NCBI GenBank assembly: GCA_029338675.1
Contig: JAQYAV010000003.1
Coordinates: 1-39,875 of the forward strand
Length of the DNA: 39,875 nt
Origin: Lachnospiraceae bacterium
GTDB taxonomy: Bacteria; Bacillota; Clostridia; Lachnospirales; Lachnospiraceae
Direction of reading: 5' to 3'
Positions 30,083 through 39,266 of this stretch are shown here, piece after piece. A model generated the notes under the pieces. It was given only the letters and a program-made list of their open reading frames with translations, did not search any database and was not told where the DNA came from. Position 1 is the stretch's first letter. Every line of letters starts with the position of its first letter. The translations under genes were made by a program, and so were the position numbers.

Positions 30083-30442
30083 TTATTTTATCTGTTCAGG
30101 TTTTATACCCTGATTATTTTTCATACTTTCATAAAGTTGCTTTGCTAATCCAATGCCACCTTGATCAGATACCTTTTTAGCATATTGCTGTATTCTTAAA
30201 TCTCCGAACATCTCTTCATAATCGTTTTTCTCTTCATCCGCTCTTATAATAGTTTTCTCCATTGATTTATATACCTGCTCGATCATATATATTTCAAATT
30301 CCTTGCAAGCCTCAAGCATCTCTAAATCGCTGGCTGATTCTATATTTAAGCCATCTAACTTTTTAAGCGTGTCATTATTTTGATTAGCGGAAATTATTGC
30401 AGAATAATCTGATTGTCCTACGCTTCCAACTGAAACAGCCAT
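30083..30442 (-). CDS. FlgJ-type rod-binding protein (peptidase domain absent)
   Basis: 119 residues with GAGGAGG 7 nt upstream. The core ACKEFEIYMIEQVYKSMEKT, EMFGDLRIQQYAKKVSDQGGIGLAKQLYESM is the rod-binding domain of FlgJ (PF10135). The muramidase half of proteobacterial FlgJ is missing, as in other Firmicutes that carry only this domain. It probably helps assemble the rod through peptidoglycan. It is the fourth gene after mbl and flhOP, 16 nt upstream of recD2. Confidence 0.85.
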   Translation of the reverse strand: MAVSVGSVGQSDYSAIISANQNNDTLKKLDGLNIESASDLEMLEACKEFEIYMIEQVYKSMEKTIIRADEEKNDYEEMFGDLRIQQYAKKVSDQGGIGLAKQLYESMKNNQGIKPEQIK

Positions 30443-30540
30443 AGCAAATCCTCCTCAAATAATGCTCCTCTATGCTAAAACATAGGAGTTTGCGAGGACT
30501 TTATTATAAAAAGCCTACTCGTTTTAATAAACCACATCAA

Positions 30541-30596
30541 CATTTCGATATTTCGATATTTCGATATTTCAATATTTCAATATTTCGATATTTAAA
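30541..30596. repeat. Seven-unit 8-bp tandem repeat
   Basis: Seven units of 8 bp: first unit CATTTCGA, then TATTTCGA twice, TATTTCAA twice, TATTTCGA, and TATTTAAA. It ends just before the stop of flhP (30604) and lies in the 161-nt gap before the rod-binding gene. Unit length is not a multiple of 3 and the array is non-coding. Confidence 0.9.
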
Positions 30597-30603
30597 TATA
30601 TCA

Positions 30604-31431
30604 CTATCTCAAATTATTAGCTTGTTTCATCATATCATCTGAGGCTTGAATTGCTTTTGAGTTCATTTCATATGCTCTTTGAGCAACAATCAAATTAACC
30701 ATCTCATTAGCAACATCAACATTAGAGCCCTCTAAATAATACTGATGTACTTTACTTTGAGTCAGGTTAGCATTTCCTCTTTCAGCAATAGCCTCACCAG
30801 AAGCTTGTGTAACAGAGTAGTTATTGCCACCTTCCTTTGCCAGACCTGCTGGATTATTAAACTGATATAATCCAAATCTTACCTCGCTACCATTATTCAT
30901 CAATGGCTTAATATTGCCTGTTGCATCTGGGAATCCTAACATTCCATTCTTATCAACAGCAAGCTTGCTTGAATTAACGTTAGCAGGCAAAATAATCTCT
31001 CGACCATTGTCATCTAATACTGGATATCCATCTGCTGTACATAGAAGATTACCTCCTTGAACAGGAGAAATAATAAAGCTTCCATCTCTAGTATACTGGA
31101 GCTCTCCATCTGGCTTTCTTATCTGGAAGAAGCCATCTCCTTCAATAGCATGACTAAATGGATCTGTTTTAGTTAACAACTCTCCCTGAGTAAACATACC
31201 AGTTATGGCAGATACTCTAGAACCCAATCCAACCTCTGCTGCAACTGGCTTAGCTTCTCCTGCATTATTAGTTGATTTAGACTGAAGATTTTGATATAGA
31301 AGTGATTTAAAGCTAGCTTCCTGTGTTTTATATCCAACTGTATTAACGTTTGCAACGTTATTAGAAATTGTATCAACATTAATCTGCTGTGCTCTCATTC
31401 CTGAAGCAGCTGTCCATAATGAACGCATCAT
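30604..31431 (-). CDS. flhP: Flagellar distal rod protein FlhP (FlgG/FlgF family)
   Basis: 275 residues. MRSLWTAASGMRAQQINVDTISNNVANVNTVGYKTQEASF is the rod/hook N-terminal motif, GFFQI...TRDGSF appears in the middle, and GSNVDVANEMVNLIVAQRAYEMNSKAIQASDDMMKQANNL is the C-terminal motif. Together with the preceding gene it matches the mbl-flhO-flhP arrangement of B. subtilis, where both form the rod/hook base. AAGGTAGGTG lies upstream of two adjacent ATGs; either could serve. It follows flhO by 26 nt. Confidence 0.92.
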   Translation of the reverse strand: MMRSLWTAASGMRAQQINVDTISNNVANVNTVGYKTQEASFKSLLYQNLQSKSTNNAGEAKPVAAEVGLGSRVSAITGMFTQGELLTKTDPFSHAIEGDGFFQIRKPDGELQYTRDGSFIISPVQGGNLLCTADGYPVLDDNGREIILPANVNSSKLAVDKNGMLGFPDATGNIKPLMNNGSEVRFGLYQFNNPAGLAKEGGNNYSVTQASGEAIAERGNANLTQSKVHQYYLEGSNVDVANEMVNLIVAQRAYEMNSKAIQASDDMMKQANNLR

Positions 31432-31457
31432 AATAATACACCTACCTTATCCTTTAA

Positions 31458-32240
31458 CTAACCAAGTCTGCCTAACTGAGCAGCCTTCTCCAATGTTCCA
31501 TCTACTGTTTGCATCATCTTCTGATTAGTTTCATAAGCTCTTGTTATAGCAATCATATCAACCATTTCAGTTACCATATTAACGTTAGACATCTCAAGAT
31601 AACCTTGCTGAACTCCAGCATTTGTTACTATCTGAGTTGCTCCATCAACTGCGTCATACATATTCTCACCATAACTACTTAAATAATCATAATTCTCAAA
31701 ATCAGTAAGCCCAACCTTTGCAATATATCTGTTTCCAGAATATATTTCTCCCATTTCATTAATTGATGGCTTTATTGTATTTGCATTTGGAATCTGGATT
31801 TTATTGCCTCTATCATCAAGCACAGAATCTCCATCCTTGGTAACAAGAAAACCTTCCTTGGTAACAGTGAAATCTCCATCACGTGTATATCTGACATGTT
31901 CATTTCCACTAGTATCAGTGCTGCTGATAGTAAAAAAGCCTTTTCCACTAATTGCCAAATTATAAGAACTACCCGTCTCTTTAAAATTACCCTGGGACAT
32001 ATCGTAGTATGTCTCGCCAATCTTAACTCCAGGAGTGAGCTTGCCAATCCCTCTAATAAGATTAGCACCCTCTGTTATATCGTTAATCTTTACAGCTAAT
32101 TGCTTGTCAAAAGACTGTGCTGTAACATCAATTTTCTTATAGCCGGTAGTATCTGCATTTGCCATATTATTTGTCACAACATCCATTCGCTTTTCTTCAT
32201 TGCGAAGGCCTGTCCATGCAGTGTAGAGTGCTCTTACCAT
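31458..32240 (-). CDS. flhO: Flagellar rod protein FlhO (FlgF/FlgG family)
   Basis: 260 residues. VRALYTAWTGLRNEEKRMDVVTNNMANADTTGYKK is the flagellar rod N-terminal signature, GKGFFTI...RYTRDGDFTV in the middle, and EMSNVNMVTEMVDMIAITRAYETNQKMMQTVDGTLEKAAQLG the C-terminus. GAGGTGAG lies just before the start. It is 26 nt downstream of mbl and upstream of flhP, as in B. subtilis. Exported to build the rod. Confidence 0.92.
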   Translation of the reverse strand: MVRALYTAWTGLRNEEKRMDVVTNNMANADTTGYKKIDVTAQSFDKQLAVKINDITEGANLIRGIGKLTPGVKIGETYYDMSQGNFKETGSSYNLAISGKGFFTISSTDTSGNEHVRYTRDGDFTVTKEGFLVTKDGDSVLDDRGNKIQIPNANTIKPSINEMGEIYSGNRYIAKVGLTDFENYDYLSSYGENMYDAVDGATQIVTNAGVQQGYLEMSNVNMVTEMVDMIAITRAYETNQKMMQTVDGTLEKAAQLGRLG

Positions 32241-32266
32241 CGTCTCACCTCGTTCAACATTACAAA

Positions 32267-33247
32267 TTAATTAAGAAATTCAATTCTCTTTCCTGTTCCT
32301 ATTGCTACTGCAGTAAGTGGTTCCTCAGCAGTCATAGTTGTAATTCCTGTATTCTCCTCAATAAGGTCTTCTAAACCATGCAAAAGAGCTCCGCCACCTG
32401 TTAAAACAATACCTCTGTCTGCAATATCTGCAGCAAGCTCAGGTGGTGTCTTCTCTAATACAGAATGAACTGCATCAACTATCTGCGCTGTTACTTCTCT
32501 AAGTGCCTCTTCTGTCTCATCAGAAGCAACTGTTACAACCTTAGGTAAACCTGTAACAAGGTTACGTCCTCTTATATCCATAGTAATATTTTCAGGTCTT
32601 TTATAGCATGTACCAATATTAATCTTAATATCTTCTGCTGTACGTTCACCAATAAGTAGGTTATGTCTTTTTCTCATGAACTTGATTATTGCATCATCAA
32701 AGTCATCTCCTGCAGTTTTTATTGACGCACTAACAACTGGCTTACCAAGTGAAATAACTGCTATATCTGTTGTTCCACCACCAATGTCAACAATCATGTT
32801 TCCGCAAGGTCTTGATATGTCAATACCAGCACCAATAGCAGCTGCTACTGGTTCCTCAATAATATAAACATCTCTAGCTCCTGCCTGATAAGTTGCATCT
32901 TCAACTGCCTTTTTTTCTACCTCAGTAACACCTGAAGGTACACAAACACTTACACGTGGTCTTCTTCCAAAAAAGCTTTTACCAATTGCTTTATTAATAA
33001 AATATTTAAGCATTTTTTCGGTAGTCTTATAATCAGAGATAACACCATGTCTAAGCGGTCTTACTGGAACAATATTTCCTGGTGTTCTACCTATCATAAG
33101 TCTTGCTTCTTCGCCTATTGCCTTTATTGTATTAGCGTCTCTATCATATGCCACTACTGATGGCTCCTTTAATACCACGCCTTTCCCTTTTACATAAACC
33201 AAAATACTGGCTGTTCCTAAATCTATTCCTATATCTGAACCTGCCAT
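32267..33247 (-). CDS. mbl: MreB-family actin homologue (Mbl)
   Basis: 326 residues from the ATG at 33247, with AAAGGAG 5 nt upstream; an ATG 18 nt earlier lies upstream of that Shine-Dalgarno and is rejected. DIGIDLGTASILVYVKGKGVVL is phosphate-1, MIVDIGGGTTDIAVISLG phosphate-2, and IVLTGGGALLHGLEDLI the adenosine motif, all of MreB-type actins. These guide peptidoglycan synthesis along the sidewall and set cell shape. Placement directly upstream of flhO-flhP is as in B. subtilis mbl. A sigma-D-like element at 33310-33336 may put it partly under motility control. Confidence 0.93.
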   Translation of the reverse strand: MAGSDIGIDLGTASILVYVKGKGVVLKEPSVVAYDRDANTIKAIGEEARLMIGRTPGNIVPVRPLRHGVISDYKTTEKMLKYFINKAIGKSFFGRRPRVSVCVPSGVTEVEKKAVEDATYQAGARDVYIIEEPVAAAIGAGIDISRPCGNMIVDIGGGTTDIAVISLGKPVVSASIKTAGDDFDDAIIKFMRKRHNLLIGERTAEDIKINIGTCYKRPENITMDIRGRNLVTGLPKVVTVASDETEEALREVTAQIVDAVHSVLEKTPPELAADIADRGIVLTGGGALLHGLEDLIEENTGITTMTAEEPLTAVAIGTGKRIEFLN

Positions 33248-33309
33248 TGTTACTCCTTTCTGCATCTATAGACAATTCATAATCCATTATTTAATCATCT
33301 ACATTAAAT

Positions 33310-33336
33310 ATATCGACACAAATCTAAAATTCATTA
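33310..33336 (-). promoter_or_regulatory. Candidate sigma-D promoter upstream of mbl-flhO-flhP
   Basis: TAAT (33333-33336), 15-nt spacer, GTCGATAT (33310-33317), one mismatch in each element relative to TAAA-N15-GCCGATAT. The -35 lies in the last codons of the upstream PAS/GAF gene. Confidence 0.5.
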
Positions 33337-35111
33337 GCTTTTCTAATAATATATAATGAAGCTGCTTGTCCCTGCAGCCATTCCATTTCAATCTCAACAA
33401 TATCCATTATCTCATCTAACGCCTTAACATAGCTCTTCCACTTAGAAGGAGTTTTCTTAACATCTTGCGAAACAATTCTATTACTAGCGAAAATAGAATA
33501 AGAATCTCTTGTTTCCCCAATAACTACTCTGCTATCCAATCCAACAAAGTCATATCCAAGCAAATTATTCATAAAGTCATTAGCAAACAATACTTTACCT
33601 GTGTTTTTGTCGCTAACAAAAATACCTGCATTAAAGTTATTGTATGATTCTATCAAATGTTTATTCACTCGACGTATATTATCATCACCCTCAGCACTCT
33701 CTAACATACTTTGAACAACAATTGCAATACTTTGAGTAAACTTTTTATCCTTATCAGTCCAATGATGCTCCTTCTCATATTGAACAAAGAATAACGCACC
33801 ATAATAATGCTGATTAATATATATTGCATGTACTAGCAAGGCCTTTATTCCAAGTGTAACCATATTATATCGTTCAACATCAGTCATTTCATCACTGTTA
33901 ACTACGTAAGTACCTTCTCTTGTTTTTATACATTCCTCAATTATAAACATCTTTCTAGATAAGGCTTCAAACATCTCGTTGCCAGATTCCTTGTTACCCT
34001 TGCTCCAATAGCTTCTTAATTTGTAGTCTCTACTAGATACTGAATCCAATGTACACAAAAAAGCTCCATCTGCATGAATATGAGTTCCTACTTCATCCAA
34101 AGTATCCTCAATAACCTTCTCAACTGGTTGATCCTTCTTTGTGTTAATTGCATTCAATGCATTATTAATAATATTCTGTTTTTCTAATTCTTCTTTAAGT
34201 CGTTTTCCTACCCCTTTTGATTTGGCTGTTTCCAAATCAAAAGAAATAGCTTTATTAATATAATTCTCTATTTCTTTAGCAATAATCCATTGGGATTCGC
34301 ATATTCGGCATAATTCTTCACTCTCCTCAGGAGTATATGAGCCGAGTATCCAAAATCCAAGAACCTGTTCTCTTCTCTTAAGTGGCACAATAGATAATTT
34401 GCCAAAGCCACCCTCTTCTCTCTCATATACAGTTGGAGTCATATTGTCCAAAATATTTTTCTTTATATTTTGGAAATATTTTTTATAATTCGGCATATCA
34501 AATAAATCATAGAAATCTCCAAGATTAAGTGCAGGACCAACTGGCGAAAATACTACATTTCCATCCTTATCAACTACAACTGAATATAATTTTGATACAT
34601 CAGAAAAGGCTTTTGTGAAGCTATTAACACTATCCAAATTATACATTTTCCACACTTGATCACAGTTCTCATTTGGAACAAAATCACTACGCATATCTAT
34701 ATCATATGCCGCTCCAGTTTTGGAAAGATTACGTATATTTTCCTCATCAGGAATCATGTAAAATTCCGCGTCGTATATATCATTATCTACTTTAGTAATA
34801 AAGATTTCATTACGAATATTATAGATTACACCGTCATCGCTAACTAATCTAAAATTATGGACATACGAATCTACCTTAGCATAAATTGCCTTTTGAAGAG
34901 TCGCCAAAACACTCTTTCTATCCTCTGGATAAATATAATCAGATATTAACTTCAAGCCTTCCCTAAGCAATCTAATATTTAATCCCATAGGCTCCGCATT
35001 TGGAGAAATATATTCCATCTTACTCTGTCCAGTATTAACATCGAATCGAAGAACCATTATTATATAGCCTGATTTATTTAAGGCTTTAAGTAAATATTCC
35101 TTTTCCTTCAT
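33324..35111 (-). CDS. PAS-GAF-PAS sensor-like protein without output domain
   Basis: 595 residues if it starts at the ATG 35111 (GGAG about 11 nt upstream); a TTG at 35120 is closer to that site and possible. Residues ~15-125 look PAS-like (GYIIMVLRFDVNTG, ISDYIYPEDR, HNFRLVSDDGVIYNIRN). Residues ~165-285 resemble a PocR-type sensor. A helix leads to a GAF domain (~325-470, VEKVIEDTLDEVGTHIHADGAFL, YGALFFVQYEKEHHWTDKDKKF) and a final PAS-like segment (SDKNTGKVLFANDFMNNLLGY). No kinase, GGDEF, EAL or HTH region follows, so it is a sensor with a separate partner or a scaffold. It is upstream of mbl and downstream of the DivIVA-like gene. Confidence 0.7.
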   Translation of the reverse strand: MKEKEYLLKALNKSGYIIMVLRFDVNTGQSKMEYISPNAEPMGLNIRLLREGLKLISDYIYPEDRKSVLATLQKAIYAKVDSYVHNFRLVSDDGVIYNIRNEIFITKVDNDIYDAEFYMIPDEENIRNLSKTGAAYDIDMRSDFVPNENCDQVWKMYNLDSVNSFTKAFSDVSKLYSVVVDKDGNVVFSPVGPALNLGDFYDLFDMPNYKKYFQNIKKNILDNMTPTVYEREEGGFGKLSIVPLKRREQVLGFWILGSYTPEESEELCRICESQWIIAKEIENYINKAISFDLETAKSKGVGKRLKEELEKQNIINNALNAINTKKDQPVEKVIEDTLDEVGTHIHADGAFLCTLDSVSSRDYKLRSYWSKGNKESGNEMFEALSRKMFIIEECIKTREGTYVVNSDEMTDVERYNMVTLGIKALLVHAIYINQHYYGALFFVQYEKEHHWTDKDKKFTQSIAIVVQSMLESAEGDDNIRRVNKHLIESYNNFNAGIFVSDKNTGKVLFANDFMNNLLGYDFVGLDSRVVIGETRDSYSIFASNRIVSQDVKKTPSKWKSYVKALDEIMDIVEIEMEWLQGQAASLYIIRKANEF

Positions 35112-35163
35112 ATTATCCAATACTCCTCCAAATACTTTGTAAAAAACATAGCTGTTGCGCAAT

Positions 35164-35192
35164 ATTATAGTATACACAACAGCTTATGCTAA
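35164..35192 (-). promoter_or_regulatory. Sigma-A promoter of the PAS/GAF gene with inverted repeat
   Basis: TTAGCA (35187-35192), 17-nt spacer, TATAAT (35164-35169). An 8-bp inverted repeat (AGCTGTTG at 35150-35157 and CAACAGCT at 35177-35184) brackets the -10 and could be a repressor site. Confidence 0.7.
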
Positions 35193-35232
35193 CATAAAGC
35201 AATCTAAAATTATTAAGGCTTATCCTTATCTG

Positions 35233-36183
35233 CTAGTTGTTAACCTCTGGAAATGCCTGATTAGCAACTTCCTTTGCACTGTTGCATGCGCTAACAACGT
35301 TATCAACAGCGAGATACAACTGTGAAAGGTATTCACTTACACTCTCACATTCTCTCTTTACAGACATTCTTATAGAATATGCCTCACTTCTAGCCTGAGA
35401 ACGCATCTCTTCACATTCCTTCTCAGTAGTGTCCTTAAGAGCTGTGCATTCAGCTTCAGTAGTCAACTTAAGAGTAGTGCACTCCTCCTCAGTAGCATTC
35501 TTAAGGTTGTTACACTCCATAGTAGTTCTCTCGTTAAGTTCTCGACAATACTTGTCTGTATCCTCTCTAAGTTGTTCTGTCTCTTCCTTAGCTGTTCTTC
35601 TTAAATTATCACAAGTAGCATATGTTGCTTCCTTCTTTTCCTGACAGTCACTCTGAGTTTCTGCTGTAAGCTTATCACATGCAGCAACAGCCTCATTATG
35701 CATCTGCTCACAAGCCTCTGTTGTTTCCTCAACAAGCTTATCACATGCCTCCTGAGTCTCTGTTGCAAGTCTCTCACATTCTGCCTCAACCTGTGCTCTT
35801 CTTTCCTCACACTCTTTAGTAGTCTTCTTAGAAAGCTCGTCTGCATTTTCTCTAGCCTCTAAAAGAGTTCTTGAAATAGATTCATATCTCGTTGCAGACT
35901 CCTCTTCCTTAAGTCTGTAAATCTCTAACTTTTCTTTTAACTGACTAATCTCTAACTGTAATTCATCATTAACCTGTTTAAGCTTATCTATAGTAGAAGA
36001 AGATTCATTTAAGTTGACTTCTCTCATTGTATGAAGATTCTTAACTGTATCACTTAGCTTAAGCACATTGGCTTTTAATTCCTCAACCTCTTTCTCATGA
36101 GCCTCTTGAGTTTCATCTATATATGAATCTACTGCCTTCTTATCATATCCACCAAATGATACTGTCTTAAATGGTACATTCAT
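35233..36183 (-). CDS. DivIVA-like coiled-coil protein with 11-residue Cys repeat
   Basis: 316 residues, AAAGGAG 9 nt upstream. VSFGGYDKKAVDSYIDE (8-24) is the DivIVA-type N-terminal motif for membrane curvature binding, followed by a coiled coil. From 125 to 279 the chain repeats every 11 residues with Cys at one fixed position: 125, 136, 147, 158, 169, 180, 191, 213, 224, 235, 246, 257, 279; positions 202 (Thr) and 268 (Ala) are substituted. Each unit looks like (T/A)xxxCxxLxxx. An 11-residue period suits a long nearly straight coiled coil with the Cys on one face. No transmembrane segment is seen. A candidate sigma-D promoter (36276-36302) would link it to motility. Its function is not known; polar scaffold is an inference. 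Confidence 0.75.
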   Translation of the reverse strand: MNVPFKTVSFGGYDKKAVDSYIDETQEAHEKEVEELKANVLKLSDTVKNLHTMREVNLNESSSTIDKLKQVNDELQLEISQLKEKLEIYRLKEEESATRYESISRTLLEARENADELSKKTTKECEERRAQVEAECERLATETQEACDKLVEETTEACEQMHNEAVAACDKLTAETQSDCQEKKEATYATCDNLRRTAKEETEQLREDTDKYCRELNERTTMECNNLKNATEEECTTLKLTTEAECTALKDTTEKECEEMRSQARSEAYSIRMSVKRECESVSEYLSQLYLAVDNVVSACNSAKEVANQAFPEVNN

Positions 36184-36275
36184 TATTGTAATCTCCTTTC
36201 ATAATCAAACGCTTTTGTTTAAACCAATAATTTCTCACAGAAATCAATCTAAAAACCACGATTAGTATACCACAC

Positions 36276-36302
36276 TTATCGACATATTGCACTTGTTTTT
36301 TA
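36276..36302 (-). promoter_or_regulatory. Candidate sigma-D promoter of the DivIVA-like gene
   Basis: TAAA (36299-36302), exactly 15 nt, GTCGATAA (36276-36283); a single mismatch from TAAA-N15-GCCGATAA. The start point would lie near 36269, about 86 nt before the ATG. Confidence 0.65.
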
Positions 36303-36311
36303 TCAAATGCA

Positions 36312-36330
36312 ATGCAAGAATTTCTTGCAT
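36312..36330. repeat. Perfect 19-bp odd palindrome, possible operator
   Basis: ATGCAAGAA and TTCTTGCAT separated by a single T. It lies 9 bases beyond the -35 of the sigma-D candidate at 36276-36302, in the divergent region. The arms are perfectly complementary. Confidence 0.6.
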
Positions 36331-36450
36331 ATTATTAAAAATATAATTTCCTATTCATTTCACAATAAACAACCCATTGTCTAAAACCTGCATTATTATC
36401 ATTGCCTTATTTCAATTTATACAATAGTCTTATTTCATTTTTTTGTCGCA

Positions 36451-36503
36451 TTTATTTACATTATATGATATATTTATTCAGTATAGATTTATTTACATTA
36501 TAT
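36451..36503. repeat. Direct repeat upstream of the lipoprotein gene
   Basis: A 16-bp sequence (TTTATTTACATTATAT) occurs at 36451-36466 and again at 36488-36503, 37 bp apart. Both copies contain a TTTACA-like -35 and precede the lipoprotein Shine-Dalgarno. They may be alternative promoters or an operator pair. Confidence 0.5.
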
Positions 36504-36523
36504 TTTACAGAAAGGCAAATACG

Positions 36524-37354
36524 ATGAAAATCCTAAAAAATAAAACTTTTCCGATTATTCTTTGTGTTGTCTTGGCATTTTCATTATGTGGTTGCGAAAA
36601 AAAGGAACCAAAGAAATACCAAAACTACATAAAAAGTTTAATTGCAATTAATTATCTTGGTGCAGCAAAAGATTATATTAACGCCACAGGGGCAAATGAA
36701 GAAGATGCCAATGCATTGTACAATTCAAACATTGAGCTTCTCACAAATAATATTTTGTCATTTTATAACATTGAGCTTTCCGAAGGTTCAGAGGCAAGAC
36801 AAGGCTTTGTGGAGTTAGCAAAAAACATTTACAGCCACGTTAATTACAAGGTCTCTCCAGCACGAAAGGATGGTACAGCATATTTAGTTGACGTTACTAT
36901 TTATCCTATCAACCTTTTTGAACAAACTGCTCCTGATGTTACTGCGTATATCAACAAGTTCAATCAAGAGGTTGCTAGTGGACTATATTCTTCATATACA
37001 GTTGAAGAGTATGAGCAGGTTTTCTCTGAAGGTTTATTAGAGATTCTTAATAACGGTTGCATAACTATGACCTACAAAGATCCTGTTACAATAACAGTTG
37101 AAATCGTAATGGATGATAATATTTTTTATATTAGCGATTATGATTTTCTGCAGATTGATGCCGCTATGATTTCTTCTTCTGTTTCATACACACCAGTTGA
37201 ACCAACTGATGAGATTACCGAAGAAGGCGAAACAGACGAAACTATATCAGAAGCTACAGAAGCTGCTGATACTACAAAGGCTACTGATACTACAAAGGCT
37301 ACTGATACTACAGAAGCTGTTGATACAACTAAGTCTACTGAAAACGCAGAATAA
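36524..37354 (+). CDS. Putative lipoprotein with Thr/Asp-rich C-terminal tail
   Basis: 276 residues from the ATG at 36524, with AAAGG 8 nt upstream; the longer reading from 36443 has no Shine-Dalgarno and is rejected. MKILKNKTFPIILCVVLAFSLCGCEK is a signal peptide with lipobox L-C-G-C, giving lipidated Cys after cleavage. The mature part (~30-240) has no recognised family. The C-terminus is a low-complexity tail of repeated ATDTTK-like units encoded by an 18-bp tandem repeat, probably a flexible linker outside the membrane. It is monocistronic, divergent from the DivIVA-like gene and convergent with glmS. Confidence 0.75.
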   Translation: MKILKNKTFPIILCVVLAFSLCGCEKKEPKKYQNYIKSLIAINYLGAAKDYINATGANEEDANALYNSNIELLTNNILSFYNIELSEGSEARQGFVELAKNIYSHVNYKVSPARKDGTAYLVDVTIYPINLFEQTAPDVTAYINKFNQEVASGLYSSYTVEEYEQVFSEGLLEILNNGCITMTYKDPVTITVEIVMDDNIFYISDYDFLQIDAAMISSSVSYTPVEPTDEITEEGETDETISEATEAADTTKATDTTKATDTTEAVDTTKSTENAE

Positions 37355-37405
37355 ATGTCTTCGCAGTATTGCGCGACATATAATTAATCATTTCATTTAC
37401 ATGCT

Positions 37406-37447
37406 AAAAAAGGCAAAACCTTCTATCAAGAAGATTTTGCCTTTTTT
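37406..37447. terminator. Bidirectional terminator between the lipoprotein gene and glmS
   Basis: A long stem (left arm 37406-37424, right arm 37429-37447) with one C-A mismatch and a 4-nt loop, having six A at the left foot and six T at the right foot. It serves both convergent genes. Confidence 0.9.
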
Positions 37448-37451
37448 GTTT

Positions 37452-39266
37452 TTATTCTACTGTAACCGACTTAGCAAGGTTACGTGGTTTATCAACATCT
37501 AATCCCTTAGCTTCAGATGTATAATAAGCAATAAGCTGTAATATAACCGAAGTTGCAAATGTAGTAAACTCACTATCTAACTTAGGAATTCTTATATGCT
37601 GATCACATATAGCAACGTCATCAACCTTTTCATCCATACTTACTAAAACAACATATGCACCTCTTGCCTTTACTTCTCTAATGTTAGAAATAACTTTTCC
37701 ATAAACATCCTCTTGAGTTGCAAATGCAATAACAGGAACATTTTCAGCAATAAGAGCAATTGTTCCATGCTTAAGTTCACCTGCAGCATATGCCTCTGCA
37801 TGAACATATGATATTTCCTTTAGCTTAAGTGCTGCTTCAAGACTCATTGTATAATCAAGACCTCTTCCAATATAAAATGCATCTGGAGCAAGCTTGATAT
37901 GATTAGCAACACGTTTAATATTATTAGCACTCTTAAGTGTTTCCTCAATTATATTAGATGCGTTTATTAAGTTAATAATAAATTTCTTTGTTGATTTTTC
38001 ATCTATAAGTTTTCTAACCAAGCCCATTCTTGCAGCAATCAAATACATTGCAGCAATCTGAACTGTATAAGCCTTTGTACTTGCAACAGCAATTTCAGGA
38101 CCTGCATGAGTGTATAATACGTAATCACTTTCTCTTGCAATTGTTGAGCCCTTAACATTAACAATAGATAGTACTTTAGAGCCCATGCTCTTAGCTAACT
38201 TAAGTGCTTCCAAAGTATCAATTGTCTCACCTGACTGTGACAATACGATTGTAAGAGTTTTAGAATCCATTATTGGGTTCTTATATCTAAATTCCGATGC
38301 AATCTCAACCTGAACAGGCACACGCAATCTACTTTCAATAAGATGCTTTCCAACCATTCCAGCATGCATTGCAGTACCACATGCAACTACGCATATTCTC
38401 TCGCAATCTGTAAATATCGAATCATCAATTCCATCTTCTGTAAAATCTGGTAAGCCCTGACTTACTCTTGGAGTTACTGTATTACGAATTGCATCTGGCT
38501 GCTCATATATTTCCTTTAACATAAAGAATGGATAACCACCCTTTTGAGCACTTGCAATATCCCAGTTAACAGATAATATCTCTGGCTTAACCTCGTTACC
38601 CTTCATATCAATAATATCAATACCCTCTTTACTAAGTGTTAATATATGATATTCAGGAACAACAAAATAATCCTTAGAAAATTCAATAAGTGCTGTTAAA
38701 TCAGAAGCAATAATTGATCCCTTCTCACAGGAAGTAGCTACCATTGGACTAACGTTTCTAATAGAGAAAATCTTACCTGGAATATCCTGGAACATAATAC
38801 AAAGAGCAAATGCGCCAGATAAAACATTAACTGTTTTCTTGATTGCTTTAATTGGATCTCCATCATAAAGAGTATCAAGAAGTGCAGCTACAACCTCAGA
38901 ATCAGTCTCTGACATAAGCTTATCAGCAAGACCATATTCAGATATAATCTGCTTATAATTTTCAATTATTCCGTTATGAATAAGAACAACCTGACCACAT
39001 CTATGTGGATGCGCATTAACATCTGTTACTCCACCATGAGTTGCCCATCTTGTATGTCCGATTCCACAAGTACCTGATAACTCAGCATTTTCACAAAGCT
39101 TTCTCAAATCAGCTACCTTTCCTGTTTTCTTCATCACATTGATTCTTCCGTTGTTAAGTAATGCAAGACCTGCACTATCATATCCGCGATATTCTAATCT
39201 TTCTAATCCATCAATAATAATATTTTTAGCTTGAATATTACCTGTAAATCCTATAATTCCACACAT
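37452..39266 (-). CDS. glmS: Glutamine-fructose-6-phosphate aminotransferase (isomerising)
   Basis: 604 residues. CGIIGFTG with nucleophile Cys2 opens the glutaminase domain, which includes LERLEYRGYDSAGLAL, GHTRWATHGG and HNGIIENY. Two SIS domains follow (CGTAMHAGMVGK, LSQSGETIDTLEAL; then YIGRGLDYTMSLEAALKLKEISYVHAEAYAAGELKHG), ending in KPRNLAKSVTVE. The enzyme makes glucosamine-6-phosphate from fructose-6-phosphate and glutamine, the first committed step to UDP-GlcNAc and the wall. GAGGTAA precedes the start. The leader carries a glmS ribozyme, so the mRNA is cleaved when the product is abundant. Confidence 0.97.
   Translation of the reverse strand: MCGIIGFTGNIQAKNIIIDGLERLEYRGYDSAGLALLNNGRINVMKKTGKVADLRKLCENAELSGTCGIGHTRWATHGGVTDVNAHPHRCGQVVLIHNGIIENYKQIISEYGLADKLMSETDSEVVAALLDTLYDGDPIKAIKKTVNVLSGAFALCIMFQDIPGKIFSIRNVSPMVATSCEKGSIIASDLTALIEFSKDYFVVPEYHILTLSKEGIDIIDMKGNEVKPEILSVNWDIASAQKGGYPFFMLKEIYEQPDAIRNTVTPRVSQGLPDFTEDGIDDSIFTDCERICVVACGTAMHAGMVGKHLIESRLRVPVQVEIASEFRYKNPIMDSKTLTIVLSQSGETIDTLEALKLAKSMGSKVLSIVNVKGSTIARESDYVLYTHAGPEIAVASTKAYTVQIAAMYLIAARMGLVRKLIDEKSTKKFIINLINASNIIEETLKSANNIKRVANHIKLAPDAFYIGRGLDYTMSLEAALKLKEISYVHAEAYAAGELKHGTIALIAENVPVIAFATQEDVYGKVISNIREVKARGAYVVLVSMDEKVDDVAICDQHIRIPKLDSEFTTFATSVILQLIAYYTSEAKGLDVDKPRNLAKSVTVE

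Follow-up and report, generated by a model that had tools for sequence, protein, structure and literature searches.

The DivC gene and its protein

The window, that is, the whole stretch of DNA that we analysed (39,875 nucleotides of contig JAQYAV010000003.1 from a gut-type Lachnospiraceae bacterium), carries on its minus strand a gene for a DivIVA-like rod protein with a ladder of cysteines, which we name DivC here. It is followed by genes for a sensory-type protein and an MreB/Mbl protein. The features of the locus, all on the minus strand, are the following:

36277..36302, minus: sigma-D-like motif TAAA-N15-GTCGATA, 119 nt upstream of the DivC ATG, not conserved
35233..36183, minus: DivC, Cys-ladder DivIVA-like rod gene, open reading frame of 316 aa (ATG at 36183, stop ending at 35233)
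36112..36183, minus: DivC DivIVA-like head, residues 1-24, GGYDKKAVD (from Pfam PF05103, TIGR03544 and the RGYDxxEVD motif)
35848..36111, minus: DivC heptad neck, residues 25-112, hydrophobic period 3.54, Cys-free in 77 distinct homologues
35335..35823, minus: DivC 11-residue-repeat shaft, residues 121-283, core Cys(0), Leu/Met(+3), Thr(+7)
35236..35334, minus: DivC C-terminal segment, residues 284-316, including the off-register Cys300
35146..35189, minus: likely terminator between DivC and the PAS gene, a hairpin and then a U run
33324..35177, minus: PAS/PocR/GAF sensory-type protein, a conserved neighbour; of its four Pfam matches, three fall just short of their cut-offs
32267..33265, minus: MreB/Mbl, conserved second neighbour, 462 bits

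DivC contains 14 cysteines, and 13 of them stand at residues 125+11k through 279; that is, 13 of the 15 positions between residues 125 and 279 are Cys, the gaps being Thr202 and Ala268, and Cys300 is off register by one. Thirteen Cys in one mod-11 class were obtained in none of 100,000 shuffles of residues 111-300. The residue count and the shuffles thus confirm the spacing, with its Thr and Ala exceptions, that a sequence-only reading had reported. That reading had also described the units as otherwise divergent, and this holds: with the Cys position excluded, their mean pairwise identity is 20% in protein and 40% in DNA. The ladder codons include both TGT and TGC, and together with the divergence of the units this indicates that the ladder is not a fresh tandem duplication.

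The proposed DivIVA-like identity is supported by the head and by the heptad coil behind it. DivIVA-like heads carry the motif RGYDxxEVD, of which a G variant is also described (PMC9858780), and GGYDKKAVD deviates from it, if the initial G is allowed, only by E to A. In 39 sequences G12 and Y13 of the head are invariant and D14 is nearly so. The Pfam DivIVA model PF05103 gives 22.2 bits on residues 5-55, below its cut-off of 28, and 30.2 bits when summed over the DivC frame; it reaches 44.3 bits on the syntenic orthologue L037, and TIGR03544 scores 20.4 against a cut-off of 22. We rejected DivC as the canonical DivIVA orthologue, since the main DivIVA of the same genome is a separate protein (G000:C103, 121.9 bits, one Cys); another paralogue in this genome has 53.8 bits and no Cys. 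Twelve of 15 DivIVA paralogue loci from eight genomes, L171, L178 and L179 being left out of the count, encode proteins with 0-2 Cys each and no ladder. DivC is a divergent extra DivIVA-like paralogue, in which a motif head and a heptad neck lead into a shaft built of 11-residue repeats.

Averaged over 77 distinct homologues, hydrophobicity in the neck repeats every 3.54 residues, much as in a heptad, and in the shaft every 3.66 residues (11/3); the shaft value is unchanged when Cys is scored as Ser. Around the shaft helix Cys (0 degrees), Thr (-33) and Leu (-65) form one narrow face, and the hydrophobic moment at -36 degrees falls within it, which makes Cys a core position. The 3-4-4 spacing fits the a-d-h scheme of PMC9858780. 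The cysteines lie on the hydrophobic face, and what the earlier description called a Cys face is more aptly seen as a core position within an 11-residue coiled coil. AlphaFold2 models, which as monomers are uninformative about partners, predict for the window protein two helices, 15-219 and 232-310 (pLDDT 80.6, pTM 0.30; residues 1-10 and 212-230 below pLDDT 50) and a single unbroken helix 15-266 for a 272-aa homologue (pLDDT 86.0, pTM 0.35). In a rough straight-helix model with assumed bundle radii, the Cys CB atoms are 5.9 A apart for a parallel dimer and 6.8 A apart for a trimer, and at 5.9 A a disulfide would need some adjustment. The search for solved relatives gave no match at E 0.01 or better, and the phage collection gave none.

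The Cys register in homologues and in other proteins

Homologues were gathered in two sets that overlap, many of the same species being present in both. DivC was matched in 35 of the 61 genomes of a neighbourhood search, 34 of these being among the 37 same-genus genomes (the window's own included), and the register is kept in all 30 full-length copies from this set, again with the window's included. When named genomes were scanned with two peptide patterns taken from outside the ladder, 77 loci were recovered, with record titles nearly all from Lachnospiraceae or Eubacterium, and every one of them has at least 6 Cys in one 11-residue register. The 117 loci in all carry a YESI anchor in 113 cases; L037-L040, which have no anchor, were treated as outgroups. 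A filter of at least 6 Cys and fewer than 400 aa dropped four further anchor matches (in L064, L073, L079 and L080), and merging of identical sequences from both pooled sets left 77 distinct homologues, a number that equals the 77 named-genome loci by chance. Subset A1 holds 20 of 30 loci, A3 38 of the 77 named-genome loci plus the window protein, and A4 26 of 77 plus the window protein.

Among the 77 distinct homologues, which have 10 to 15 units, 744 of 790 Cys share one 11-residue register, and head and neck contain no Cys at all. Where the main group lacks Cys at a ladder position, the residue is A (61), T (59), V (24), L (6), M (6), S (5) or I (1). In an alignment of 39 sequences, over ordered pairs 40-55% identical, Cys is retained in 8064 of 9093 aligned cases (0.887), a value biased by the alignment in favour of Cys-Cys matches; the corresponding values are 0.60 for Phe, 0.57 for Leu, 0.56 for Thr, 0.49 for Glu, 0.37 for Ala and 0.29 for Ser. 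The alignment-free best-register fraction is 0.94 for Cys and 0.69 for Leu, the next residue. No other residue of the DivC shaft comes close to Cys in constraint. The earlier proposal that selection holds the Cys register is strongly supported by these measures, and the near-perfect pattern in same-family relatives indicates that the cysteines matter.

The register, kept in 77 of 77 named-genome loci, is broken in two distant syntenic orthologues, so that the expectation of a conserved register among homologues stands for the main group and fails in these outgroups. From one unit before the window's first Cys, L037/L167 reads along the register CSSSSSSRYCKVC, and L039/L168, from the same starting unit, begins ASRQCCAC and is mixed. 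The first of these orthologues (L037; L167 7318-8268) replaces Cys by Ser at six ladder positions in a row, a Cys-to-Ser exchange made by nature, and Arg, Tyr and Lys also occur in its register. By eye, Cys is kept in both orthologues at the equivalents of 279 and 300, and both sit in flagellar neighbourhoods. The six Ser positions mean that thiol chemistry is not proven and that the thiols are dispensable in some lineages.

The wider distribution of Cys hendecads was searched with a five-unit Cys profile, a first pass that may miss weak cases, in genome sets that each include the window's own genome. In that genome DivC was the only match, without a second ladder. At E 1e-6 the profile matched 16 of 397 genomes at family level and 3 of 398 at phylum level, and at E 1e-8 it matched 2 of 391 at class level; one of the phylum-level matches (G1205) was rejected as a Cys ladder, since its repeat has Ala and not Cys. 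By inspection, the 16 family-level matches comprise six of DivC architecture, eight with a second head that reads ...GIFEAAQxAAxxYLENI... or similar, G245, a relative of this second kind with only 3 Cys, and L134. Cys hendecads thus recur in two further architectures of Lachnospiraceae, and, summed over 11 proteins of these types, 93 of 111 Cys fall into a single register per protein, L129 and L131 having only 4 Cys.

Members of the second family (L127, L128, L130, L132, L139, L040 and L038) have up to 19 Cys in one register and no DivC-type head; their layout is typically LSRxELLEMLL... GIFEAAQxAAxxYLENI, then the Cys hendecads, then WxELSxRLEAFY. The proteins of L130 (320 aa), which has no Pfam match, and L140 (318 aa) have an added N-terminal stretch, KGYRPDEVYEV or KGYKPDEVYEV, that resembles RGYDxxEVD. 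L139 has two Cys registers, and the 18-residue step between them (11+7) is what a single switch by a heptad in the shaft would produce. At L162 and L163 the second-kind genes adjoin a gene that, by inspection, resembles signal peptidase I. The third architecture (L134, from 1195 onward; L165, 6533-7549) has a different DivIVA-like head, LFKTTLMGGFDKDDV, and 8 Cys, 7 of them in register, and it adjoins a gene resembling N-acetylmuramoyl-L-alanine amidase.

Gene neighbourhood and the flagellar question

The gene order DivC-PAS/PocR-MreB is conserved: of 77 loci, 75 have PAS/PocR next after DivC and 71 have MreB, and the two and six exceptions are loci that end first at contig ends. The hairpin between DivC and the PAS gene, with -20.3 kcal/mol (z -3.9; none of 200 shuffles as stable), was missed by a short-loop scan. 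A promoter scan gave 7 sites against 6.3 expected, and no Rfam element reached its gathering score in 33000-37600. The neighbouring PAS/PocR protein has no conserved Cys: across 66 sequences no column has a Cys majority, and the window's five Cys columns hold Cys in at most 6 of 66; a CxxC spotted there by eye was rejected on these grounds. A divergent lipoprotein-like gene with a Thr-rich repeat tail (36443-37354, plus strand) has no Pfam or NCBIfam match, and a similar stretch occurs in 62 of 79 loci searched, at no constant position.

In the window, MreB/Mbl is followed directly by flgF-, flgG- and flgJ-like genes (30083-33265). The sequence-only reading had offered flagellar placement as an example of a role for DivC, pointing to a sigma-D-like promoter. 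If DivC were a polar scaffold for flagellar placement, it would be in keeping with flgF and flgG behind MreB in 31 of 77 loci and flgJ in 29, and with the flagellar surroundings of both distant orthologues; in 36 of 77 loci recD2 comes after MreB and flgF/flgG are missing. The motif behind the promoter part of the proposal is present in the window, but its strict form lies upstream of none of the 76 other copies (one of the 77 loci has too little upstream DNA). A loose form is found in 4 of 30 loci with flgFG, where 1.3 were expected, and in 1 of 46 others (shuffle rates per sequence 0.04 and 0.06, respectively), so that the motif is common to a small group at most.

The distribution of FlhA also speaks against such a role. 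Of 23 ladder-bearing assemblies tested, 20 have no FlhA, among them both from E. ruminantium; this figure is not a rate, as 16 of the 23 were picked for missing flgFG at the locus and two are apparently one assembly. The 20 include all four ladder-bearing genomes of other genera that were found without this choice (G100, G130, G189 and G220), and FlhA is present in the ladder-bearing G035 and G832, apparently the same assembly, and G027. Conversely, three same-genus genomes without a DivC match (G004, G006 and G033) have FlhA; PAS/PocR gave no match in G004 or in the single-contig G006, and a partial one in G033. A flagellar link as a general role is contradicted by locus content, FlhA distribution and motif counts, and we regard a flagellar scaffold as very unlikely. 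The conservation of the neighbours together with the FlhA distribution makes PAS/PocR and MreB more likely partners of DivC than flagella, and gene order suggests a role in cell shape or wall growth.

What the Cys ladder may do

DivIVA, GpsB, FilP and Scy share with DivC a GYD..V(D/E) head motif followed by a heptad coil and a rod (PMC9858780). DivC differs from the DivIVA-like domain proteins treated there in its shaft of Cys-Leu-Thr 11-residue repeats and in its context, MreB and PAS instead of sepF/ftsZ. FilP and Scy come nearest, as they also join a DivIVA-like head to a shaft of 11-residue repeats, but they are actinobacterial with Ala-rich cores (PMC9858780), whereas DivC belongs to a Lachnospiraceae lineage and uses Cys. 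DivC was not accepted as a FilP/Scy protein: its core positions across homologues are Cys in 82%, Leu in 56% and Thr in 75%, its homologue records are nearly all titled Lachnospiraceae or Eubacterium, and the Scy model NF041483 yields only 20.6 of 1040 bits. The copper storage proteins Csp1 and Csp3 have, like DivC, many Cys on helices, but they are compact four-helix bundles (PMC7558416) and DivC is a predicted long helix; with no such Pfam match either, this identity was discarded. Apolipoprotein A1/A4/E (PF01442) likewise has amphipathic repeats of 11 residues; its model scores 27.4 bits on DivC, far short of its cut-off of 90, and DivC is set apart by its narrow hydrophobic face, Cys ladder and DivIVA-like head; no homology is claimed. 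DivIVA-like heads with 11-residue-repeat shafts and Ala-rich cores are therefore known from PMC9858780, in whose main text the word cysteine does not appear, and the Cys ladder version is apparently undescribed. The literature searched, outside which a relevant hendecad survey may lie, describes no Cys ladder in DivIVA-like or hendecad proteins.

The explanation that we prefer, tentatively and at less than even confidence, is that DivC forms a dimeric rod with a thiol-lined core that disulfides can lock. DivC would be an extra DivIVA-like scaffold whose head brings at least two chains together, parallel and in register, and the Cys rungs of adjacent chains would then lie opposite one another at intervals of roughly 16 A (11 residues of 1.5 A each). 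The thiols would serve as compact core residues in the reduced anaerobic cytosol, and upon oxidation inter-chain disulfides between neighbouring rungs would lock the rod, so that how stiff this membrane-curvature scaffold is, or how it assembles, would depend on redox state. Gene order suggests that such a rod may act together with MreB and the PAS/PocR protein to organise the cell wall or cell shape.

Nearly as likely is that the ladder serves core packing only: a small residue would be needed where side chains meet, and this clade would use Cys there, in place of the Ala of FilP and Scy, with no thiol chemistry. The syntenic orthologue with its six Ser fits this, as do the main-group replacements, which are limited to A, T, V, L, M, S or I, small or apolar and never charged; small core residues are, moreover, accounted for in PMC9858780. 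Against packing alone stand the retention of Cys far above Ala, Ser and Thr, which would serve equally, the Cys-free heptad neck and the recurrence of Cys hendecads behind other heads; the Ser orthologue also places Arg, Tyr and Lys in register. The suggestion that DivC is redox-sensitive or metal-binding is possible in both its parts, and we judge the metal part distinctly less probable than either locking or packing. In that reading, stacked thiolate sites in a three- or four-stranded bundle would bind Zn, Fe, Fe-S or Cu(I), whether to store the metal, to sense it or to make the rod stiffer. The regular layering of Cys in what is predicted to be a helical core agrees with it, and copper storage proteins are natural Cys-lined helical bundles (PMC7558416). 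Yet no metal-handling family was found among nine window proteins scanned with Pfam, and His is outside the seven commonest residues at every unit position, though Glu/Asp flank the Cys; Ser in one orthologue also weighs against a metal ladder. That the ladder is an incidental by-product of recent repeat copying is extremely improbable. The variable unit number and the identical adjacent unit cores of some homologues (L009) would agree with copying, but the window units have diverged outside the Cys and the Cys columns are among the most conserved across homologues, which rules out repeat homogenisation for the window protein.

Beyond DivC, it is conceivable, though we think it less likely than not, that Cys hendecads are a recurring Lachnospiraceae module, present in at least three architectures, whose in-register thiol rungs form a zipper that disulfides or metal can switch and that runs along a rod of the bacterial cytoskeleton. 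With Cys in the core at nearly every 11th residue, a pattern that 77 diverged homologues keep and that returns behind other heads, these proteins amount to a precise natural experiment on the cores of coiled coils. Should the thiols take part in chemistry, these anaerobes would have a redox- or metal-switchable scaffold adjoining MreB; if they are not, Cys can be a standard small core residue of anaerobe coiled coils, which bears on coiled-coil design.
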